From Cheilinus undulatus (taxonomy: Eukaryota; Chordata; Actinopteri; Labriformes; Labridae): a DNA stretch of 64,000 nt. Of this stretch, positions 3,761 through 58,275 are shown one piece after another (position 1 is the first letter of the stretch; every line of letters starts with the position of its first letter). Location of the stretch: positions 41,357,398 to 41,421,397 of the forward strand of contig NC_054865.1 of NCBI RefSeq assembly GCF_018320785.1, written 5' to 3'. The notes beneath the pieces are model-generated. The model had not been told where the DNA came from. It worked only from the letters and a program-made list of their open reading frames with translations, and ran no database searches. The position numbers were made by a program, and so were the translations under genes.

Positions 3761-6552
3761 ATGGCTACTTTGTCCTCAGATTTTGTGGAGGATATCAGCA
3801 AAGATGAATGCAAAGAGGATGAATTGGAGGAGGAAGAGGAAATAGAAGTTAGTGATGAAGAAAAAGAAGAGGCTGAGGGTAAGACAAATGAGGGCTGTGA
3901 GGTGAGGGTCTACATGCTCATTTAATCCACAGAGATCTGAGCGTCTGTGTCTTGTATTGTTCAGATAAATCAGTCATTCAGCAGCAGAAGAAACCAGCCT
4001 GGGCTCCATGTTTCTTCTTCAGAACAGACAGAGAGGTGTACTCCTATGTTGGGCAGGAGATCATCATTGAAGAGGGTCTTGACTCCTATGCCGGCATGAT
4101 ATGGCCAGCTGTGAGTAGAGCCTTTAATTGAAATTCTATAACCTCATTTACTGCTATATTATAAACAGTACTGTTACGTGAATGACACCAGTCAGTGCTG
4201 TAATTTCTGGGATAACTAATGATACAAAAGGCCTGTCACAGTTTAGACGTACAATGCCTCTAAAAAGTACTCTTGGATGTTTGAATTTTTATTGATTTAT
4301 AAATTAATCATTGTCAATATCAGAGGCTTTTTGACAAAAAACACCTTTTTAAAGTCAGTGTGAAAACTAATTTCTACAAAGTAATGTCAGTTAAATAAAG
4401 ATATATAAAATAAGTGACTGTGTAAATATTCCCCCCCTTCAAGTTAGTATTTAGTAGACGCACCTTTGGCTGCAATCACAGCATTGAGTCTGTGTGGATA
4501 GGTCTCAATCAGGCTTGCACATCTGGACACTGCAATTTTACTCCATTCTTCTTTGCAAAACTGCTCATGTCAGGTTTCATGGAGATCGGGCGTGAACAGC
4601 TCTTTTCAAATCCAGCCACAAATTCTCTATTGGATTGAGGTCTGTGCTTTGACTCAGCCTCTCCAGAGCATTCACCATTCGGACCATTGTCTTACTGGAA
4701 ATAAATCTTCTCCCAAGCAGTGGTTCTCTTGCAAAGTGAATAAGGTTGTCCTCCAGGATTTTTCTATATTGTGCCGCATTCATTCTACCCTCTACCTTTA
4801 CAAGCCTTCTGGGGCTCGCTACCAAGAAGCATCCCAACAGCATGTTTCCCCTGCACCACTATGCAGCCTGGGGCTGCACAGTGGTGCAGGGGTTAGCACA
4901 GCAAGAAGGTTCCTGGTTCAAATGCCAGTCTGGGCCTTTCTGTGCAGGGTTTGTATGTTCTCTCTGTGCATGCGTGGGTTCTCTCCAGGCACTCTGGCTT
5001 CCTCCCACAGACCTAAAACATGCTTGATTAGGTTAACTGTTGACTCTAAGTTGCCCGTAGATGTGATAGAGAGGGTACCTGGTTGTATGTCTCTGTATGT
5101 CAGCCATGCGGTTGATTGGTGACCAGTCCATGATGTACCCCACCTTCTGCCCAATGATAGCTGGGATAGGCTCCAGCTCGCTGCGACCCCGCATAAGATA
5201 AGCAATGTAGAAAATGATGGATGGATGGATGCTAGAGCTTCCTCCTCTTACATTCTCCAAACCAAGCTTTGAAAACATGTTAATGAATCTATATTTAACT
5301 CTTTGTTTCCTGATATTTGTCATTGTTTCTCCTCAGGCTCTGGCTCTCTGTCATTACCTGGACACTCATCGTCAACAGATCAGCATGGTTGGCAAGGCAG
5401 TCCTGGAGATTGGGGCAGGAACCGGCCTTGTGTCTATTGTAGCAACACTCCTCGGTAAGATGTGCAAATTTAACCCCCATTGCCTTCGGGACAAAACAGA
5501 GTTTGTGTTAAAAAAAGAAATGAAGAATAGGTTTATGCAAAGGACATGTTTCAGTCAGTTAAAAAAAAGTGATGGGTGTTTGAAAAAGAGCAAAAAGAGA
5601 GAAGCTAGTACTAGACATTAGACATATCTTGCATTAGCCACTGGTTTCAAATTGTCATTCTTCTGAGTGTTTATGATGGGATCAGTTGTAGTTCTAGATT
5701 TCATATAGGCTTTTGATTTCAAGAATCTTTCTGTAGGCTGGAAGAAAGATGATTTCTCTCACTGTCTCAGGTGCCTGGGTGACAGCCACAGACCTCCCAG
5801 AGGTCCTGAACAACCTGAGAGTGAACCTGAACAGGAACACCAGGGGACGCTGCAGATACACACCTCAGGTGGCAGTTCTACCTTGGGGCTACAACCTGGA
5901 GGACACCTATCCTACATCTGTGTATCGCTACGACTACGTCCTGGCCGCTGATGTGGTCTACCACCACGACTTCCTGGACGAGCTCTTGGCCACCATGAAG
6001 CATTTCTGCAGACCAGGAACCACGCTGATCTGGGCCAACAAGGTCAGGTTTGAGACTGATCTGACCTTCACAGAGAACTTTAAAAAGGCTTTTAATACCA
6101 CACTGCTGCTAGAGGACGGAGAGATGAAGATCTTCATGGCGACATGCAGAGAAGAAGGGGAAAAGGGGGTTGATATGACTGAAATCCAAGATCTGGTGAG
6201 AGAGACAGAGGAAGAGGATGGCAGAGAGAATGAAGAAGATGAAGAGGAGGCAGAACCTCAAGGAGTAAACACAGAGGAATGGAAAGAAAAAGAAAATGAT
6301 GTACATGAAATCCCAATGCCAGAAAAAGAACATAATGAAGAAGAAAAAATCCTGTATGACTTGGAAGAAAAAGAACAAAAGGAGGCAGAAAAAGAAGACG
6401 AAGAAGAAACAGATGAAGAGGATAAAACGAAGGACGATGGGTCAAGTTGTAGCTCAGCAAACAATGAACATCTGTCAGGTGAGTCAGCTTCATCATCTTT
6501 AAAAGGCATGCTAGACATCTCTGTCATCACATCCCTTCTGTTGAAGTCATAA
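3761..6552 (+). CDS. mettl21c: METTL21C-type protein-lysine methyltransferase, first tandem copy
   Basis: Seven-beta-strand SAM-dependent methyltransferase of the METTL21 group; family members trimethylate lysines of chaperones and translation factors (human METTL21C has been linked to alanyl-tRNA synthetase). Coding exons: 3761-3878, 3965-4110, 5337-5454, 5771-6552 (or to 6478 if spliced on). All junctions are GT-AG and keep phase. Residues 1-39 are acidic; the KPAW block and GMIWPA follow; motif I is LEIGAGTGL (about 111-119), ATDLP follows at 133-137, and the family DVVYHHDF block begins at D188. After about residue 250 an unusual Glu/Lys-rich tail of over 100 residues runs to the end. I chose ATG 3761, not 3713, because TTTTCCCAG just before it looks like a splice acceptor. 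A strong donor (CAG|GTGAGT) at 6478/6479 lies 74 bases before the TAA, in the right phase to splice into the next copy at 8521. Confidence 0.88.
4247..4868 (-). mobile_element. Relic of a Tc1/mariner-like DNA transposon
   Basis: On the minus strand 4843-4577 encodes a peptide with GRMNAAQYRKILEDN, LGRRF and, at its end, STDLNPIENLWLDLKRAV, the last catalytic block of Tc1-type DDE transposases. The middle of the enzyme is missing and the frame is short (88 codons), so this is a deleted, inactive copy. The flanking sequence from about 4247 (CCTCTAAAAAGTACTC) belongs to the same or a nested element. It sits inside intron 2 of the first methyltransferase copy. Confidence 0.7.
4869..5232 (+). mobile_element. 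SINE-like interspersed repeat with (GGAT)n tail
   Basis: A retroposon-like unit beginning GGGGCTGCACAGTGGTGCAG (an A-box-like head), with a B-box-like GGTTCAAATGCC near 4914, a conserved body (CAGGGTTTGTATGTTCTC, GTTGCCCGTAGATGTG, AGCTGGGATAGGCTCCAG) and a (GATG)n tail at 5214-5231. I recognise the body as a very common interspersed repeat of teleost genomes. It lies in intron 2 of the first methyltransferase copy, directly after the transposon relic. Confidence 0.7.
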
Positions 6553-6604
6553 AACTAACAGCTATGTGTAGCTGTCAGTAGGCCACCCTTAAGGGGGATT
6601 AAAG

Positions 6605-7727
6605 GGAGAGCTTTCTGTGGCCCAGCCAACTGGGGGGCCCATCGAGGTCAGGAAAAACATTTCCCATTGTAAAGTTAAGCTATAATAATGATATTTTATT
6701 TTTTGACCAGAGTAAAAAACACTCTTATCCTAGGAACAACATTTTTATTTTCATATTTATGTCATAGCTTCCTTAAAAATGTAAACCCCTTTTCTTCAAA
6801 CACATTTAAAGTGGGTTTAAAGTGTTAAAATTGGTTAAAAGTGGCATAAACAGGCAGAAAAAGTAGTGAAAACAGGTTACAAGGGGCAAAAAATGGGCAT
6901 AAAAAAGTGAAATGCATTTGAAATGGGCAAAAAAGGGCAATAAAAATCAGTAAAAGGGAGTTAAAAGCGGTAAAATGGATGCAACACCAGGAAAAAATGA
7001 CAAAAATGGCTTAGAAGTGGTAAAAATGTGCAGAAAAGGTGGTGAAATAGGATTTAAAAGTAGGGAAATGGGTTTAAAGAAGCAAAAATAGGTTAACAGG
7101 GGAAAAAGAGACAAAAAGTGGCACAATGTGTTAAAAGTAACACATACAGGCAGGAAAAGTGGTGAAAAGGGGTTACAAGTGGCAAAAAGGGTTAACAGAG
7201 GCAAAAATTGGCAGAAAAGTTGATGACGTGACTAAAAACTGGGGAAAAAGGGTTAAAAGAAGCAGCAATGGGGTCAAACGTGGCAAAAAGGGGTAATAGA
7301 GGCAAAAATGTTTAGAACGTTATGAAAAATATGAAGAAAAAGTTGTGAAGAGCTTTTTAAAAAGTGGCAAAAACTGGTTAAACAGCAAAAATGGGTTGAA
7401 ATATGGCAAAAATGTTTTTAAAAATGAGGCAAAAATAGATAAAAAGTGTACAAAATTGATGAAAATGGCAAATATTATTTATGAAATAAACAGAAAAAGA
7501 AGTTAAATGGGTCAATAAGTGGCACTTAAAAATAATTTCAGCATCACAACCCAATAATAGCTTGACACAATTTTACGCTCTTAAATGAAGTAACTGTTAG
7601 CCAGGACGCTAGCACCAATGCTACTAATCCAACACACATGCACTGATAAAATCAATAAATCACAACTATGGAGGGCCCACTCTGGGATTTTCTGGGGCCC
7701 AGCCAACTCTGTGGGCAGGCCTGACAG
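6605..7727 (+). repeat. Repeat element with GGCAAAAA core, copy 1
   Basis: The left end reads GAGAGCTTTCTGTGGCCCAG and the right end TCTGGGGCCCAGCCAACT then GTGGGCAGGCCTG. Between them, from about 6830 to 7540, runs a degenerate array of units such as GGCAAAAATGG, GTTAAAAGTGG and GGTAAAA with no fixed period. The same ends and core recur at 31824-32590, 45311-47153 and, inverted, 57084-57320. The right 180 bp (tgttagcc...caataaatcacaact) is also shared with the 45-47 kb copy. No coding capacity is seen. It lies in the intron between the two methyltransferase copies if they are spliced together. The superfamily is not determined. Confidence 0.75.
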
Positions 7728-8520
7728 TCACAATAATTGACAGCAGAAAGTGCACACACTGGACTTCCTTAAGGTCCCTATTATACAATATTATTAGTTA
7801 GATAAGATAAATCTGTCGGTTCATTGATCATCTACATTTTCAGTCACCTCCACATCTTCAAACTTAAAAGACATCATATTTGTACTTGGATGCTACATTA
7901 AAATGTTACCAGCCAATCAGAGATGTTCAGCAGAGCAAGAGCAAACCCCAAAGTTTCTGTTCTGCTGAGAACTTTATAATATAAAAAGCCTTACATTGGG
8001 GATAAAGTTATATTTCTCAAGCTAAATTTTGATCCCGATAGTAGTTAAAAGACATTTAGGTCTTATTCCCTATGGAAAAGCTTGCAGGAAAAAGTCACAG
8101 ATCATCTGATGAAGTAGGGATCTCATACGCAGCTGATTTCATGGTGCATGGGTAAAAGAAACCACATAAAAACAGAAACTATATTAGGACATAACAGTAT
8201 CTATATCTACTTTCAGTCTCTCTCTGTTATTTTGTGTGGCTATGCACTCTTAAGTGAAAAAGCTTCTTTAGGGCTTTCATATATCTGGCAAGAGAAGAGG
8301 CAAGAATTTGAGATGTGAGCCACTTCGAGCTGATTTAAGAGAAGTGAAGCCAAAATGTGGTGAAGCCAGATTTTCCAACCAGATAGCTAGTTTACCCGCT
8401 TCCTAGTGTAGAGTGTCTGAACTAGTGAGGGCATGAGGCTGAGACTCCTTTTTTAAAGAGAGGACTAAAATATATTGGTTTCTCTCTATTATATTGTATT
8501 ATATGTTGCTATCTCCATAG

Positions 8521-9357
8521 AAGAAACACACATGAAACAAACAGCAGTGCAGCAGGACACCAAACCAGCCTGGGTCCCCAGCATCATCAGCAAATTTGGT
8601 AGGGATATCTACCATTATGTGGGGGAGGACATCGTCATTCAGGAGTCCATAGACTCTTATGGAGCAGTGATGTGGCCAGCTGTGAGTTCCTCTGAAAACT
8701 GTAAAAATACAATTTCTGGTAACAGGTGAGCATTTTAAAGAGGTATAACCTTTCTCCCTGCAGGCGTTGGCTCTGTGCTCCTTTCTGGAAAACAACAGGG
8801 AGAGGGTGAACCTGAAGGGGAAGGAGGTGCTGGAGCTGGGAGCAGGAACAGGACTGGTGACCATTGTGGCCAGTCTGCTGGGTGAGCAGTCTTACCTATA
8901 AATAAGACATGTAGGAACGCAAATTGACACAAAGTTAGTATAGTTTGAACGTCCTGCTTGTGCATCCACAGGAGCTTCAGTCACTGCTACAGACTTACCT
9001 GACGTGTTGGGCAACCTGCGGTCTAATGTGATGAGGAACACCAGGGGGCGCTGCAGATACACACCTCAGGTGGAGGTTCTCTCCTGGGGCTACAACCTGA
9101 AGCATACCCACCCTACATCTGTGTATCACTACGACTACATCCTGGCCGCTGATGTGGTCTACCACCACGACTTCCTAGGTGAGCTCTTGGCCACCATGAA
9201 GCATTTCTGCAGACCAGGAACCACGCTGATCTGGGCCAACAAGGTCAGGTTTGAGGCTGATCTGACCTTCACAGAGAACTTTAAAAAGGCTTTTAATACC
9301 ACACTGCTGCTAGAGGACGGAGAGATGAAGATCTTCATGGCAACTTATAGAGAGTGA
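8521..9357 (+). CDS. mettl21c: METTL21C-type protein-lysine methyltransferase, second tandem copy (possibly C-terminal half of a fused protein)
   Basis: Exons 8521-8681, 8764-8881 and 8972-9357 (TGA 9355-9357) match exons 2, 3 and 4 of the first copy in position and phase. The peptide has KPAW, SYGAVMWPA, motif I LELGAGTGL, ATDLP and DVVYHHDF, so all core methyltransferase motifs are kept, and it ends at IFMATYRE without the acidic tail. No first exon of its own is visible: the first exon opens at a splice acceptor (CTCCATAG, 8520) in phase 1, exactly the phase left by the donor at 6478 of the first copy. Joined, the gene gives a 584-residue protein with two methyltransferase domains and an acidic linker (about 251-363). 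If transcribed alone, translation could begin at ATG 8532. A poly(A) signal lies at 9789. Confidence 0.85.
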
Positions 9358-10381: not shown

Positions 10382-10447
10382 TGAAGCATTTCTGCAGACC
10401 AGGAACCACACTGATCTGGGCCAACAAGGTCAGGTTTCAGACTGTTT
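10382..10447 (+). pseudogene. Stray fragment of methyltransferase exon 4
   Basis: About 57 bases, from TGAAGCATTTCTGCAGACC to AAGGTCAGGTTT, match exon 4 of both methyltransferase copies (for example 5996-6051) with a single clear difference (CCACA for CCACG), then similarity is lost within ten bases. No other exon is present, and the surrounding open frame has no splice sites linking it to a gene. This is a third, tiny duplicated piece of the exon, about 1 kb after the intact second copy. Confidence 0.75.
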
Positions 10448-25300: not shown

Positions 25301-28300
25301 ACATACACTGCCTTAGTGGATGCCAGGAGGACCTTTCCTACAAGATAAATTGCTCTCTTATAAGATCTTCAATACTCTCGAATAACTGCAAAATGTAAAA
25401 AAAAGGCTTGTGTATAAAACAAAAAAGGCTCTGCAATTTTCGAGAGGTGAAGCTTAATGAGTAACCATTCATTTCAACTAATGCAGGCAAGCTGTAGCAT
25501 GTCGAATCCTACTGTGCTCAGCACTTAGTTCAATTTCTGAACTTCAGCTATTCACATAAGAGGAGCGACACAAGGGCTATTAGAAAGGAAAACTTCAGAA
25601 AGGGGGGAAACTTTAAACAAAAAAAACAATGGTATGATCACAGTCTAGGGACTTAACATGGTTTGAAAAATAATAGGCCTTTAATTCATCAAATATGTTA
25701 ATTACACCAACACATATTGGCTTCTTCAGGGTGCAGTGACACACTGAGAAAAAGAGTAATTATTGCTGACTCGTTCCTGTGTTTGCAGTAATTACTCTCT
25801 TCATCTCAGTGTGTCACTACACCCTGAAGAAGGTACAAGCCGGTACATGTTTGTGTATTTCTATGATCGTCGTAGTAACATGAATCCAAGGCCTTTTATA
25901 TATTAAAATCATCCTCAGTCCAAGGACTTTGATCATTCATACCAATGTTTTTGGTCTTAAGTTTTCCCTTCTCATTAAAAATAATGTGTTGAACTTTTAA
26001 CCTCCACATTGCATCAGCCTTGAGATTACCAACAAATTCTCTGGTAGAAAGATCTTGCCTGTGCTTCAGTCAACATAATCAGCTTTTAGGCACTTTATGA
26101 TAAAAGGTTTTCACCCTGGACTCATTAATATTTTTCTGTTTTCCAACACCATTTCCCACTAGGGAGGCACTTGACAGTAAAAGACTTGATTTAACACCAT
26201 TATCTCCAGTATCAATAAGATGGAACCATTTAACAATCATCAAGACAGTTTTTAGATGAACACTTGTCAGGGGCTAGACCTTAAGGGGCTCTCAAAAATA
26301 AATAACATGCAATTTCTTTCTTTCTTTTTTTTTTAAATAGGCTTCTCTATATTTTACTATCTAAAATTTAATATTTTATTTACTCAAGGCTCAAAATTAC
26401 CACTGTATGAGGTCGCGACCAATCAAACTGGATCATTTTACAACACCTACGCTTTGGTGTACATGTCAATCAGTATGTTTGTGTCAAAGATTAAAACTAA
26501 CAATATCTTTCTCAAATTCTATTTCATTTAGCTTTTTTTTGTTTTTGTTTTTTGTCTGTTTATTACACCACAGGCTTACCTAACTATAACTGATAGTAGA
26601 TGAAACAAAGTATAAGCTGCACTTCTGGTTAAAAAATAATGACAATGATAATAATGAGTAAAAGCAAACTGGAATTATAAATCTGGGAGTTTATGTCCTT
26701 TTTCTTTATCAATTAACCAAACCATGACCCCAAAACAAGGGTACAAACCAAACCGTGACCTCTGTGCACTATTACACCCCTAGTCATAATGGTAAACTGT
26801 GGACAAGAAAACATTGCAGCTGTGAAACCAACATAAAAACACTATTAACTACTCATTTGTTTGCCTTTTCTGTGAACATATGTGTGATGTAAGGAAAGAT
26901 ACCTTCAAAGTCCTGCAGAATATGCCCGTCTCTGAATGAAAGGGTCTGTTTTAGCTGCTGGTCCAACATGCTGTGGATGGTGATGAAACTCTCATCCAAA
27001 GCGACTACGTAAGGAAAACACACAGCAGCACCGATCACGCTCTCTGACCAGTTCACAGGAGCCCGCTGAGAAACACCTTCAGCATTGGCAAACATTCCTG
27101 GAGGCAGACATGGAGAAATGATGAAGAAGAGGGCTGACAGGCACTGGCACACGTCATACAGACTCCAAATATTCATACCTCTGGAGGCTGACCTGTTTTG
27201 ACCTTACATGAAAAAATATAAAAGGGGTATGCTAAGAAATCCAAAAAATTATAAACTAAAGAATGATAGAGAACCAGCAGGGTAAATAAGACATACAGTT
27301 ACAATAAAGTATGCACATTAAATGACATCAGTATCACATTACTTTGAGCAGTTTCCAGCCTCATAATTCCCAAACAATTCCTTAAAACATAATCAGTTAA
27401 CAAGAGATGGACTCAAATAAGTTGCAGAAAAATGTTGGAAACTGACTGAAAAACACAAGATTATGTAGGTCAGGTGGTGTTGACTGACAGAGCTGTACAA
27501 ACAAACTAATGATGCACCGGTCTTTCTTGTTGTTTATGGGTAATGATCTCTTCCTGGATCCCTTTACCTCATACAAGAAAACTAGTGACTCTCTTTGATA
27601 TGCAAACACACTAATATCTCCTGAGGCCTTTTCAGGAGACTCAAAGAGCTGCAGATTTTTTGTTGTGTCCTGACTTACCCAGACCACCAGGTGCTGCTAA
27701 AAGGAACTCCTCCCTGCCAATCCTCTTCACTATGGGTTTCCTCTCCTCGCTGCTGTAAGGGAAAAGATCTTGGGAGGCCCCAGTGTTGTAGTTCAGAATA
27801 ATGTACTGTGTCGCCAGTGCCAGGCACAAGAAGTAACCATCCAGACTGACGGCACAGGGCTGCTCAGGAGTGTTCACCTCTTTGACCAGCTGCACTCTAT
27901 CCTCATACACCATGTAAATTTGCACAGTCCGCCGTTTTGAAGAGAGCACACACATTTCCACACAGAAAGGATCACCGTTCACTGGATTCTCATTAATGCA
28001 GAACGCTGTCACACCTCTGATTTTAGCTCCCCCTCCTGCTGCCGAGGGCACCGTCTCCAGTGTCACCATGTCGACGAGGAACACCACAGCATCACAGAGC
28101 ACGATCAGACGCTCCAATGCAGATGCCGCACGCAACTCAGCAACTGGTTTCTTAAGGCCCAGATATTTGTGCAGCAGCTTCTGAGCTGAGTAACTCAGTT
28201 TCCCCTTAGGGGAAGTGACCTCGTCGAGCAGAAAGTGATGGATAAAGCAGTCATTGGTACCAAGGTACAAATGCTTTCCACAGCATTCAATGCACTCGAT

Positions 28301-28394
28301 GTTGATGCGAGCCTTGTCGCCCATGAGGAGATCTCGCTCCACAGCGGGGACAAGCTCAAAAGCCTTCACACTCATCTCGGCCAAGGCATCAGCA
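16319..28394 (-). CDS. tgfbrap1: TGF-beta receptor-associated protein 1 (CORVET subunit, Vps3-like)
   Basis: Subunit of the CORVET tether that binds Rab5 on early endosomes. Coding exons on the minus strand: 28375-27679 (exon starts at 28394), 27097-26903, 25337-25183, 25046-24964, 24364-24184, 24085-23925, 23152-23095, 22995-22852, 22306-22163, 19273-19114, 18909-18458, 16507-16319. All junctions keep phase and give 872 aa, close to the human 860. The start is MSVKAFELV; a nearer upstream ATG is out of frame. The N-terminal third (ERDLLMGDKARINIECIECC, GDPFCVEMC, KRIGREEFLLAAPGG) is the citron-homology domain. The middle carries LDVRELISLYP and RSDLYEYVVDFL of the Vps39-type helical repeats, and the C-terminus has a CHLC...HKHC zinc-binding cluster (Cys 826/829). 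No breaks were seen. The 2.9-kb intron 19274-22162 is full of retroelement debris. Confidence 0.95.
16573..17097. mobile_element. hAT-type MITE
   Basis: The left end CAATGGTTCTAAACTAG and the right end CCAGTTGAGAACCACTG are inverted repeats, and the flanks GTGTAGAT and TTCTAGAT could be a decayed 8-bp target duplication, as in hAT elements. The right half contains GGGTCCCGACCCACCAG, typical of a common fish and tetrapod hAT-derived repeat. It has no coding capacity and sits in the last intron of tgfbrap1. Confidence 0.65.
20040..20290 (+). mobile_element. LINE fragment (C-terminal block after RT)
   Basis: The plus strand reads LLVLLYSCEAWTLTDG at about 20155-20200, the conserved block that follows the reverse transcriptase in many fish LINEs, with related but frame-broken sequence on both sides. 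The same block is present, inverted, in the fragment at 1023-1545. It lies antisense in a tgfbrap1 intron. Confidence 0.6.
21290..21875 (+). mobile_element. L1/Tx1-like LINE 3' end with poly(A)
   Basis: An open frame at 21323-21652 encodes ARRLILLNWKS-like sequence (here CRLILLNWKSQHTP), a WMSDVMQHLKLEKLRY stretch and FEKTWKPFMEYI, the pattern at the C-terminus of L1-type ORF2. It is followed by about 200 bases of untranslated sequence, AATAAA at 21851 and an A-tract at 21865-21877. This is a 5'-truncated insertion, antisense in a tgfbrap1 intron. Confidence 0.7.
21900..21990 (-). mobile_element. tRNA-like SINE head
   Basis: On the minus strand the sequence reads GGTTTAGCTCAGTTGGTAGA (A box), then about 35 bases later GCAGGGTTGATTCTTG (decayed B box). 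It lacks a foldable acceptor stem and full tRNA arms, so it is a tRNA-derived SINE head rather than a tRNA gene. It directly abuts the A-tail of the L1-like insertion. Confidence 0.6.
25721..25832. repeat. Long near-perfect inverted repeat in a tgfbrap1 intron
   Basis: Arm 25721-25766 (starts CTTCTTCAGGGTGCAGTG) is inverted at 25786-25832 with about four differences and a loop of 19 bases. It would form a strong hairpin in DNA or in transcripts of either strand. No gene is associated with it. Confidence 0.7.
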
Positions 28395-28962
28395 CTAGAT
28401 GACAGAAAACAGACAGGGATCAACGTCAACTATTCAGACAAAAATAATCGATTTGTCAGACCACTGCAGAACATTTTCTTGTAATACATTATTCATTAAT
28501 AGAACGAAGCATGGGTGTGTCCTTCTTTCCCAGCCATCCCTGCATTTAAAATGCATTAGACAGTTTGGACATGTGTTTGTTTTAGACGGATTTACATTTC
28601 AATAATGATGCGAGAGTAAGCCTTTAAAAAGACAATTATTTGTGATATCTGGCCCATTGTAAGTGACACATCAACTTGAAACTCTGTGGAAGAGTGTTAC
28701 AAACATGTCTTAAAACTTCCTGATATAAGTGCTAAGAAATTGTACAAAATTTCAAATTCAAGACCTGTTAGCAGCCTTGTCTACAGTCAAACACTGTTTA
28801 TTAAGGGCTGTCAAGATACCATCATTTTAAATTTCAGTTTGATAAAAGTAAGAATCTAAATAAATTGATACCTGTTCCCATACCACAGTATCAAAAATAG
28901 AAGTCCTACAGACCCAATACTGGGTCATTTATGTTGTTTAGTTATCAGAATGAAATTTCAAG

Positions 28963-33751: not shown

Positions 33752-44333
<10,582 letters not shown>

Positions 44334-45139: not shown

Positions 45140-45834
45140 TGGATATTTAATGATTCACTGAATGATTTGTGGATAATCAGCCAGCAAATTTTTCTCTGTC
45201 TGCCATGTTGCTTCTCTCAGCTGAAGCTTGATAAAACAAATGAGTACTATTTTGACTTAATGTTAAATGTGTCTGTTCAATTCAAACACCTATGTCAATC
45301 CATCTAAAGCGGAGAGCTTTCTGGGGCCCAGCCAAACTGGGGGTCCATAGATGTCAGTAAAATTATTGTCCATTGTAAAGTTAAGCTATGATAACCATAT
45401 TTTATTTTTAACCTGATTAATAGCCACTCTTATCAAAGCAATTAAAAATTCTTCTTATTTATTTATGCTATAGTACACTATAGGCTTTTAAAAAATGTAA
45501 ATCCCCGTTCTTAAAACAGAATTACCTTTTAATTGGTACTGGTGATAATGTGGATGGGCACACTGAACTAAATGATGAGGAAGTTAATGTCAGACTTCAG
45601 AGCCAAGCCATGATGTGCACACACGTCAGGATGCCAAAAATAAATTAAAAGAAACAGACAACAGGAATGGAAATATCTAAATAATTGTGAAAAGAAGCAA
45701 TAATGGGTTAAAATGGGCAAAAAAGCTGCTATGAACAAGCAAAAAAGGGGATGAGCATGGCAAAAACCTATACAAATAGGTTGAAAGTGGCAAAAATTGG
45801 CAAAAAAACACAAAACGGGTAAAAATTGGAAGGG

Positions 45835-46324: not shown

Positions 46325-47159
46325 ATTTTCTGTACAAAACAGATATAACAAATCAAAACATTGCCACACACATTTCACGATTAAATTAAAGCTAACAGGG
46401 ATCAACTTACATTAATTTATGCATCCAATATGTTACACAAGGAGTGAGGAATTGCTTCAGCTTCCTGCTAAACAAACATAAATTAGTGCACTGTGTTAAA
46501 ATAAACTATTCTCTTTAAACTTAGGTAGGAAATGTACTCACTCATATGTGTCCTTTAAAATAGACAAACAATTGTAAATCTCTAGGTATTCTTTGTGGTT
46601 TCAGTGGTCAAACAAACTTCTATCTTTGGTGAAAGTGACAAACATAATTAAAAGGATGCACTTATTTAGCAAACAAAGTAAAAAGTGGGATAATTAATCA
46701 AACTTACTTAAGTGCTGTGGCCGCATGGACAGAGCAGGCTCAAGGACAAAGAGAAGACAATAACCACACCCATCTCTTAAATAACCTCTTGAGGTTCCTC
46801 CTCCCTGCTCTGCCATGATTATCTCAGTGAGATTGAAGATTTGAGATTTTTAACAATTAGCATATTTGGGCAAAAAGCTGCAAAACTTGGTTTAAAGTGG
46901 CAACAGGGAGGTGCAAAAATTTGGTGAAAAGTAGTGAAACGGGTCAAAAAGCTTGAATAAACAATTTCATCGAAATCCAGTAACAGTTTCACACACTTTC
47001 CAGCTCCAAAATGAGATAACTGTTAGCTAGTATGCTTGCACCAATGCTGTTGATTTAACACACATACACTGATATCATCAATAAATCACAACTAGGGAGG
47101 ACCCATTCTCTGTTTTTTTTCAGGGGCCCAGCCAATCAGTGGGCAGGCCTGGACTAGGA

Positions 47160-56200: not shown

Positions 56201-58275
56201 GACTATTGAACCCTGTTCATTGTTGTCTTTCTGTGTTTCCAGACTGTCCAAGAGTTAGTAAACCTGAGTCCTAATGAGACCAGTGTATCGGGGTCCTGTA
56301 AGGCCAGCAGTGCTTCATTAGTTTTATCACAGGAGCAAATCACCACACTCAACCTCACCTTTACTTTGGTAAGATCACATTCTTCTTTCTGAACTTAGCT
56401 GCTGTTTCATTTCTGGTTGTGTGTGTAGCTGTAAGTGTTAACTGAAGGCTTCTTTATTTCACAGAACTCCACAAACAACAAATACCACCTGAGTGCAATA
56501 ACACTGCTCGCTAACTGGTCTGATATGACAGGTATGTCTTTGTTAAAAGCCACTTATTTCTGATATTGTGGCCGTATTTTACTGTATGTATTTAAAGACT
56601 TAGAGAACAATTTCTCTCTGCAGCTCCCTTCTGGGCCAGTAACACCAGTCTGGACTACCTGCGGAGTACGCTGGGCCGCTCCTACATGTGCAACACAGAG
56701 CAAACTTTGACTGTGGTGCCAACTTTCTCTTTGAACACCTTCAGAGTGCAGGTGCAACCTTTTGAAGTCACCACTAACCAGTTTGCAACAGGTAATAATG
56801 CCTTATTTCTTCTCCACGCTGCTTTTGTTCTTGTATGTATTGCTGACATCTCTGACCTTATCTACCACTACACAGAAGCTACTGAACATAGCTCTCAACG
56901 ATGAAAGAGGGCAAATGCAGTGGTTTAAAATCATGGTTTGACATTTATGCTTCCATGAGATCAGAAGAACAAAACAGATGTTATACCTATAGCTTTAGAA
57001 GTACTTAGAACCACCCTGTTAATCTTGCAAAGCAATTCCTTGTCTGTCATCATAAGCTTTTAGCTGATATGCTTTTGCCCAGTATTTGACACTTCTTACC
57101 CCTTTTCACTCTTTTTCCTGGCCATTTTTGCCTCTTTTTGACCCTTTTTATATTTCCACCCATTTTTACCTCTTTAGCCCATTTACTGCCACTTTTAATC
57201 CATTTTCACTGCTTTTTGAACCATTGTCACCACTTTTTCAGCAGTTTCAGCTACTTTTAACCCATTTTTGGTGACCTCCATAGGCCCCAAAAAGCTCTAC
57301 CCTTTATTTCCCCTTATCAGCAGCCTTGCCCATGGAAAGAATATTTATTTTAGCCTGTCTTGTGTGTCAGATTACTATTTAAATTCACTGTTCATCATAT
57401 AATAGTTCATACATCTACATCATTATGACAGGTCCGTTTTCAGTTTAACTCCTGCACACTATCAAACTTCCAAAATACACATGTATATTTTAATGTTCAG
57501 TATTAGACCTATAACAGACAAACAATTTGTTAAATAGGGTCAGAACATCTTACATATGACGTCTTGCCCTTGTGTTTCCTTTTTTCAATAGATAGTGTGC
57601 GGGAGTTGAGGAGTTTTTCTGGAAGATTTAGATGGCCCTTGAATTAACTGACAGGAACCTGGTGCATGCTTTTCTTCATTCACGAATATAGAGCAAATGC
57701 CGTAAATTACTTACACCTTTTTAAGGTTTACCTTTGTAAAAGGAAAAACAAAAGTCGTCTTTGCATGGTGAGCTGAACCACATTTCTCTGCTTTTGTTTG
57801 AGCAACTCTGTTTTTTTTATCATTACAGCTCTGGTGTGAATTGTTTATCACCTCTAAAAAAGACTTTTCATAGTGTGGGTTTTTTGGTTGTAAATGAGAA
57901 CACTTAAACAATTTCGCTTTTCCTAGACAGTCCTCAGACAGTCTCGATTTAAAAGGTCATGGGTTAAGAATCACTAATCCCTTCTTTCTACATTTCAAAG
58001 ACACTTTAAAGCACTGGACTGCTAAAAAGTGGTTAGCTGTTAAAGTTGTGGTCATCTCCACGTTGGAAATTTGTTTCCAAATATTAGATTCTGAACAGCA
58101 GTTTCTGACTGTCCCTTCTTGTCCCCCGATTCCAGCGGAGGAGTGTCTGATGGACCAAACCCAAATGCTGATCCCCATCATCGTGGGAGCAGCTCTGGCT
58201 GGCTTGGTGCTAATTGTCCTCATTGCATATCTAATAGGCAGAAAGAGAAGCCATGCTGGATACCAAACCATCTGA
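50285..58275 (+). CDS. lamp1: Lysosome-associated membrane glycoprotein 1
   Basis: Major glycoprotein of the lysosomal membrane. Exons: 50285-50339, 54052-54158, 54263-54482, 55597-55758, 55936-56141, 56243-56368, 56465-56531, 56624-56791, 58136-58275; all in phase, 416 aa (human 417). The signal peptide MKLFRALAVLIIAWFALIG is split by intron 1. Two lumenal LAMP domains are joined by a Thr/Pro hinge (TTTSTTTTSAPAPTPPGTP, exon 5). The mature chain has eight lumenal cysteines, as the family requires, and many NxS/T sites. The last exon holds one membrane helix (MLIPIIVGAALAGLVLIVL) and the short tail RKRSHAGYQTI with the GYxxI lysosomal sorting signal. The exon 3 donor (TCTG|GTCAGA) is weak but is the only one that keeps phase with exon 4. 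Intron 1 is 3.7 kb. Confidence 0.96.
52126..52185 (+). repeat. TTCTC/TTCTA-rich simple repeat
   Basis: Short degenerate pentamer run (TCTGTTCTCTTCTCTTCTC) in lamp1 intron 1. Confidence 0.7.
53843..53935 (+). repeat. Short piece of interspersed repeat
   Basis: AAGGCAGTTTTATTTATAAA and ATAAAGTGCCTCACAGAGT resemble the start of the repeat at 38785. In lamp1 intron 1. Confidence 0.4.
54745..54885 (+). mobile_element. tRNA-derived SINE, family A, partial copy
   Basis: GTCTTCCAGGCAGGTGGCCC, a decayed B box (AAGTTGGAATCC) and CCTGTGGCTTCTTTCCTGCA follow the order seen at 10003 and 60747. The 3' end is lost. In lamp1 intron 3. Confidence 0.45.
54932..55340 (+). mobile_element. Non-autonomous element with TTAAAGGTCACAT end
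   Basis: It begins TTAAAGGTCACATATTTTAC followed by TTATATTGGTCTCAGTGATC, which is the inverse of the right end of the element at 10518-11430. The far end (TTATGGCCCCTTTGA) is only a weak inverse of the start. No coding capacity. In lamp1 intron 3. Confidence 0.5.
57084..57320 (-). repeat. GGCAAAAA-core repeat element, copy 4, short and inverted
   Basis: The plus strand shows TTTTTGCC and CCCATTTTT units, then CCTCCATAGGCCCCAAAAAG and CTCTACCCTTTATT; read on the minus strand this is the left end seen at 6597-6650 with the CAGCCAACTGGGG block missing. It lies in lamp1 intron 8. Confidence 0.6.

Follow-up and report, generated by a model that had tools for sequence, protein, structure and literature searches.

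Two adjacent copies of a METTL21C-type methyltransferase lie at positions 3761-9357 of the DNA analysed here, a 64,000-nucleotide stretch from the labrid fish Cheilinus undulatus (RefSeq assembly GCF_018320785.1, contig NC_054865.1, positions 41,357,398 to 41,421,397 of the forward strand; hereafter the window). We lean towards reading them as a single seven-exon gene, the 584-residue product of which would combine two complete METTL21C-type catalytic domains, or heads, in one chain. This two-headed reading is favoured because the splice donor closing the first copy is very strong, the phases of the two sites to be joined match, and no convincing coding exon 1 was seen for copy 2. A double-headed methyltransferase had been proposed in a first-pass annotation made from the letters of the window alone, and it provides the best fit to the sequence although it is not proven: the number of domains per chain is tied to splicing, being two if 6478 is joined to 8521 and one each otherwise.

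Two METTL21C-type heads in one open frame

All exons, splice sites and the 584-residue frame of the first-pass annotation are present in the sequence (Table 1). Joined in frame, the seven exons form an open reading frame beginning at a start codon of weak context (T at -3, G at +4). The fourth exon either ends at the donor CAG/GTGAGT (6478/6479) or continues for 74 bases to an in-exon stop ending at 6552, and this donor and the acceptor at 8520/8521 are both phase 1, as had been described. The linker that follows head 1 is as acidic as claimed, with 48 acidic and 12 basic residues among a total of about 109. An in-frame ATG at 8532, inside the first exon of copy 2, was absent from the earlier account.

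Both heads belong to the Family 16 methyltransferases (METTL21-type), with METTL21C as the nearest subgroup among METTL21A-D. The Pfam domain Methyltransf_16 matches the 584-residue chain in two stretches, with 212 bits against a curated cut-off of 21, and the best match of each head among solved structures (phmmer) is METTL21C (4mtl), ahead of METTL21B, A and D, with E values of 1.6e-65 over 196 residues for head 1 and 1.4e-68 over 198 residues for head 2. Identity to METTL21C in these alignments amounts to 98/196 and 102/196 residues, respectively. Consistent with the claim of two complete heads, each contains an S-adenosylmethionine (SAM) motif, LEIGAGTGL in head 1 and LELGAGTGL in head 2, and each keeps as DVVY the [D/E]XX[Y/F] motif named for Family 16 lysine methyltransferases in PMC5324768. 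For this family the same source describes two tryptophans, one invariant and located in the active site, the other highly conserved; the tryptophans of MIWP/VMWP and PWGY/SWGY are invariant in six aligned sequences, both heads included, and these two columns probably correspond to W222 and W318 of Efm2, which itself stands outside the alignment. Head 1 reads AG (SYAGMIWP) where head 2, a single-headed paralogue elsewhere in the genome (the C15 gene), a METTL21-type gene upstream of the window and METTL21C (SYGAVVWP) have GA, and METTL21B has AA.

Table 1. Exons of the proposed two-headed gene and associated features (positions within the window unless a locus is named)
Feature	Position	Strand	Description
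Exon 1	3761..3878	+	39 codons plus one base, acidic, phase 1 end
Exon 2	3965..4110	+	Head 1, N-terminal part
Exon 3	5337..5454	+	Head 1, SAM motif LEIGAGTGL
Exon 4	5771..6478	+	Remainder of head 1 (to about 6153), then acidic linker (about 6154-6478)
Alternative end of exon 4	6479..6552	+	74 bases to in-frame stop if the donor is unused; 387-residue protein
Exon 5	8521..8681	+	Head 2, N-terminal part; in-frame ATG at 8532 inside
Exon 6	8764..8881	+	Head 2, SAM motif LELGAGTGL
Exon 7	8972..9357	+	Remainder of head 2 and stop
Likely gene conversion tract between last exons	about 5840-6150 and 9041-9351		Synonymous divergence 0.18, against 1.6 ahead of the tract
High-copy repeat	6580..7725	+	In the gap, intronic if the gene is fused and otherwise 3' to copy 1; from genome matches, ends approximate
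Third fragment of exon 4	10382..10444	+	63 bases; identity 96.8% with copy 1, 95.2% with copy 2
C15 gene	L010 6321-6435, 6584-6747, 6825-6942, 9457-9854 (modelled exons)		Single-headed METTL21-type paralogue, same genome; 264 residues
Upstream METTL21-type gene	L009 6684-7746, 1.65 kb upstream of the window, same contig	same	Extra intron

Possible splicing across the gap between the copies

Splice sites were scored with hand-entered matrices, a vertebrate one for donors and another for acceptors. By this measure the donor at 6478/6479 ranks second among the 3663 GT sites on the + strand of the window, and it is one of only three GT sites on either strand that score 12 or more; the other five donors of the seven-exon model rank from 38th to 165th among + strand sites. 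A phase-1 donor of equal strength arose in 13 of 5000 codon shuffles of 6154-6552, and one in any phase in 16 of 5000, in a test that is biased in that the site had been chosen beforehand. The strength of this donor bears on a serious, if less probable, explanation, namely that the locus holds two separate tandem genes. Copy 1 would then stop at 6552 with an acidic tail, and copy 2 would have its own promoter and a first exon that is either noncoding or coding but unrecognised, with translation possibly starting at ATG 8532. Such an arrangement would leave the donor idle 74 bases ahead of the stop, and the ATG lies in a poor context (C at -3, A at +4).

A coding exon 1 for copy 2 was sought in 6479-8520 by a simple rule that accepts any ATG whose frame stays open up to a phase-1 donor with a score of at least 1, a low cut-off. 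None of the eight ATG/donor pairs found was competitive, in a search of little power: seven lie within a high-copy repeat, with a best donor score of 5.7, and the donor of the single pair outside it scores 2.6, compared with 8.8 for the phase-1 donor of the coding exon 1 of copy 1. The C15 gene can be modelled with a coding exon 1 that has a phase-1 end and with later introns of phases 0 and 1, like both copies, its stop falling where that of copy 2 does. Exon 3 measures 118 bases in the C15 gene, in the upstream gene and in the corresponding exons of both copies, and exon 2 has 164 bases in the C15 gene, 161 in copy 2, 146 in copy 1 and 158 in the upstream gene. These phases and lengths suggest that a coding exon should precede the acceptor of copy 2, a suggestion that is weaker than it appears at first sight.

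The repeat in the gap begins 27 bases past the stop at 6552. At least 68 genomic matches to it are listed, 40 of 10118 candidates having been scored, and its ends are set by the matches listed, many of which stop near 7723 and five of which start at 6580-6586. The repeat holds short tandem arrays of 19-41-base units, and parts of it recur in the window at 45305-45524 and 46927-47151. Canonical polyadenylation (poly(A)) hexamers (AATAAA/ATTAAA) occur between 6479 and 8520 at 6598, 6939, 7485 and 7654, all within the repeat, and at 7897. Because these signals lie mostly in the repeat, a stand-alone copy 1 would have depended, before the insertion, on the one at 7897 or on a variant; their placement thus fits a fused gene slightly better, without deciding the matter. 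The closeness of the stop to the repeat, together with ATTAAA at 6598, could instead reflect a locus that makes both products, a long two-headed transcript and, at equal weight, a short head 1 transcript ending in the repeat behind the 6552 stop. We regard this as improbable, and poly(A) hexamers are in any case frequent by chance in A/T-rich sequence.

Several observations weigh against the two-headed reading, and some of them speak directly for tandem genes. Firstly, a frame with an in-frame stop at 6552 exists, and copy 2 translated alone from ATG 8532 would give 217 residues that cover the METTL21C core, while usable donors at 8315 (score 6.5) and 8425 (6.0) could close a noncoding first exon ahead of it. 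Secondly, the linker is purine-rich, so that an open frame there says little about coding, and a second frame is also open over 6269-6502. Thirdly, the acceptors of exons 2-7 rank from 8th to 179th of 4338 AG sites, and the one at 8520 is moderate and the weakest of the model's six (179th, next to 178th for the acceptor before 8972). Weaker poly(A) variants are also present, for example CATAAA at 6548. Finally, the donor assigned to exon 1 of the C15 gene reaches a score of just 5.4, whereas the best candidate ahead of copy 2 has 5.7; that C15 exon also contains a phase-1 donor of higher score (7.6), and the rule applied to copy 2 yields 33 pairs in the 2042 bases ahead of C15 exon 2. Given so weak a donor in the C15 model, a true but weak coding exon 1 of copy 2 could have been missed, and since that exon 1 is itself modelled, the check slightly lowered our confidence in a fused gene. 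The earlier claim that copy 2 lacks a visible first exon holds in that no convincing coding exon 1 was seen; the search was weak, however, and a noncoding exon 1 combined with ATG 8532 is possible. The METTL21-type gene lying 1.65 kb upstream of the window, likewise in tandem, lends further plausibility to tandem genes. A comparison of 5' flanks between copy 1, copy 2, the C15 gene and the upstream gene gave no match at E 0.05 or better, which would count against tandem genes but says little, as none of the four flanks matched another.

Divergence and probable gene conversion between the heads

A blastn alignment of the two copies' last exons shows 88.3% identity across 385 bases, and 147 of 150 bases are alike over 5978-6127. 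Synonymous divergence (dS; Nei-Gojobori) between the heads is 1.6 before the motif NTRGRC and 0.18 from NTRGRC on, the former value being near saturation and not computable for the 21 codons that open exon 4, which is a further weakness of the case for a single gene. A local drop of this kind is as expected from later gene conversion, and we consider it likely that the near-identity of the last exons is local and arose in this way. At the protein level 61 of 109 residues are identical between the heads before the converted tract and 96 of 106 in the rest, and over the same 109 residues head 2 shares 62 with the C15 gene. The pair therefore appears to be old, and a recent duplication within one gene is unsupported.

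This result lends no support to the first-pass proposal that exons 2-4 were duplicated within a gene, as the pre-tract heads are no closer to one another than head 2 is to the C15 gene, with an undecided bootstrap (1061 of 2000); supports in a tree of the pre-tract part are low to moderate (41, 61, 81). The companion proposal, that the linker stands in place of the acidic exon 1, fared no better: similarity between exon 1 and the whole linker does not rise above base composition, the score being reached by 101 of 500 shuffles. A comparison of 6300-6520 with 3770-3960, in which 4 of 500 shuffles reached the score, offers a hint of a linker derived from exon 1, but both segments are purine-rich and this was one of three comparisons, so that it is not relied on. 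Comparing the start of the linker with the 3' untranslated region of copy 2 gave no signal (72 of 500 shuffles reached the score). Searched against its own genome, the linker DNA matched, besides its own locus, two stretches on other contigs, 57 and 53 bases long.

For the two heads the ratio of nonsynonymous to synonymous divergence (dN/dS) stands at 0.20 in the pre-tract part, 0.24 in the tract and 0.28 over the whole length. With values of about 0.2-0.3 both heads look constrained, with a reservation for the near-saturated dS ahead of the tract, but such constraint does not place them in one protein. It also bears on a third alternative to the two-headed gene, in which copy 2 is decaying, has no first exon and owes its similarity to gene conversion. 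The absence of a visible first exon would agree with decay, as would the 63-base fragment at 10382-10444, which may be the remnant of another copy. The three exons, splice sites and motifs of copy 2 are intact, however, constraint extends outside the converted tract, and similarity to human METTL21C favours neither head clearly (before the tract 55/99 for head 2 and 48/99 for head 1; within it 47/97 and 50/97), so that we hold decay to be very unlikely. The blastn similarity of the fragment stops at the fragment's ends, and it may represent either a remnant of a third copy or a scrap transferred by conversion.

If the copies are indeed one gene, the 6478-8521 splice would yield the main cellular product, in which an acidic N-terminus is followed by head 1, the probably flexible acidic linker, and head 2. 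Such a gene could have arisen from two old neighbouring METTL21 genes, the original first exon of copy 2 being lost or fused in the process, and a shorter head 1 isoform ending at 6552 may be made as well. Both heads may be catalytically active and could differ mainly in substrate choice, because the pre-tract part has diverged while the remainder bearing DVVY has been homogenised. PMC5324768 argues for an important role of the variable N-terminal regions in the substrate specificity of METTL21 enzymes, and on that argument heads with unlike N-terminal parts could serve two lysines or two subunits. More tentatively still, we posit a stable two-headed METTL21C in which both heads are active and differ in their N-terminal parts, which have diverged and probably choose the substrate, whereas the last part is kept alike by gene conversion. 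If this is true, a single enzyme in muscle could act on two lysines, or on two subunits, of one target.

Genomic relatives and known systems

A search of the own genome returned eight matches, comprising the two copies, the 63-base fragment, two parts of one upstream gene, the C15 gene on contig C15, and more distant matches on contigs C24 and C3 (35 and 37% identity), which were examined by tblastn. The upstream gene may be the counterpart of METTL21E, for which head 1 is another candidate, and its position on the same strand recalls the arrangement of METTL21E and other tandem METTL21 genes. Five stretches of viral contigs fit a pattern, and none of the five encodes a relative. Within intron 2 of copy 1, a remnant resembling a DDE transposase lies on the minus strand at 4580-4858 (Pfam DDE_3, 26.4 bits, below the cut-off of 28.6). 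Six neighbouring frames were tried, of which 27644-28429 (minus strand), 37498-37869 and 57898-58272 match CNH, Cullin and LAMP; these look like TGFBRAP1, CUL4A and LAMP1.

The locus may have relevance for fish muscle. METTL21C is reported among the most induced genes in the muscle of fasted grass carp (PMC4374334), and in pupfish a gene annotated as mettl21e is described as linked by association to growth and as misexpressed in F1 hybrids (PMC9135402), both being only putative orthologues of the locus. METTL21C itself, a seven-beta-strand protein-lysine methyltransferase of Family 16 and the best structural match of each head, is described as methylating Lys-943 of AARS1 and as expressed mainly in skeletal muscle (PMC10238732). 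It is single-headed and lacks a long acidic linker, in contrast to the two heads per chain predicted here.

Known METTL21 enzymes had been held in the first-pass annotation to be single-domain, which agrees with the description in PMC10238732 of METTL13 as the unique two-domain enzyme among human seven-beta-strand methyltransferases. No two-domain METTL21 appeared among the titles and abstract beginnings of the literature matches listed, although one may nonetheless have been published. METTL13 (eEF1A-KNMT) provides a precedent for two seven-beta-strand catalytic domains in one chain (PMC10238732, PMC6109062). Its two domains are mutually unlike, an N-terminal lysine methyltransferase being joined to a C-terminal domain with distant homology to spermidine synthase, whereas here both heads match Methyltransf_16, are METTL21-type and are nearly alike in their last part. 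Two METTL21-type heads in one chain would be unusual, and, with the later part of the heads almost the same, they would constitute a natural experiment on the role of the variable N-terminal part.

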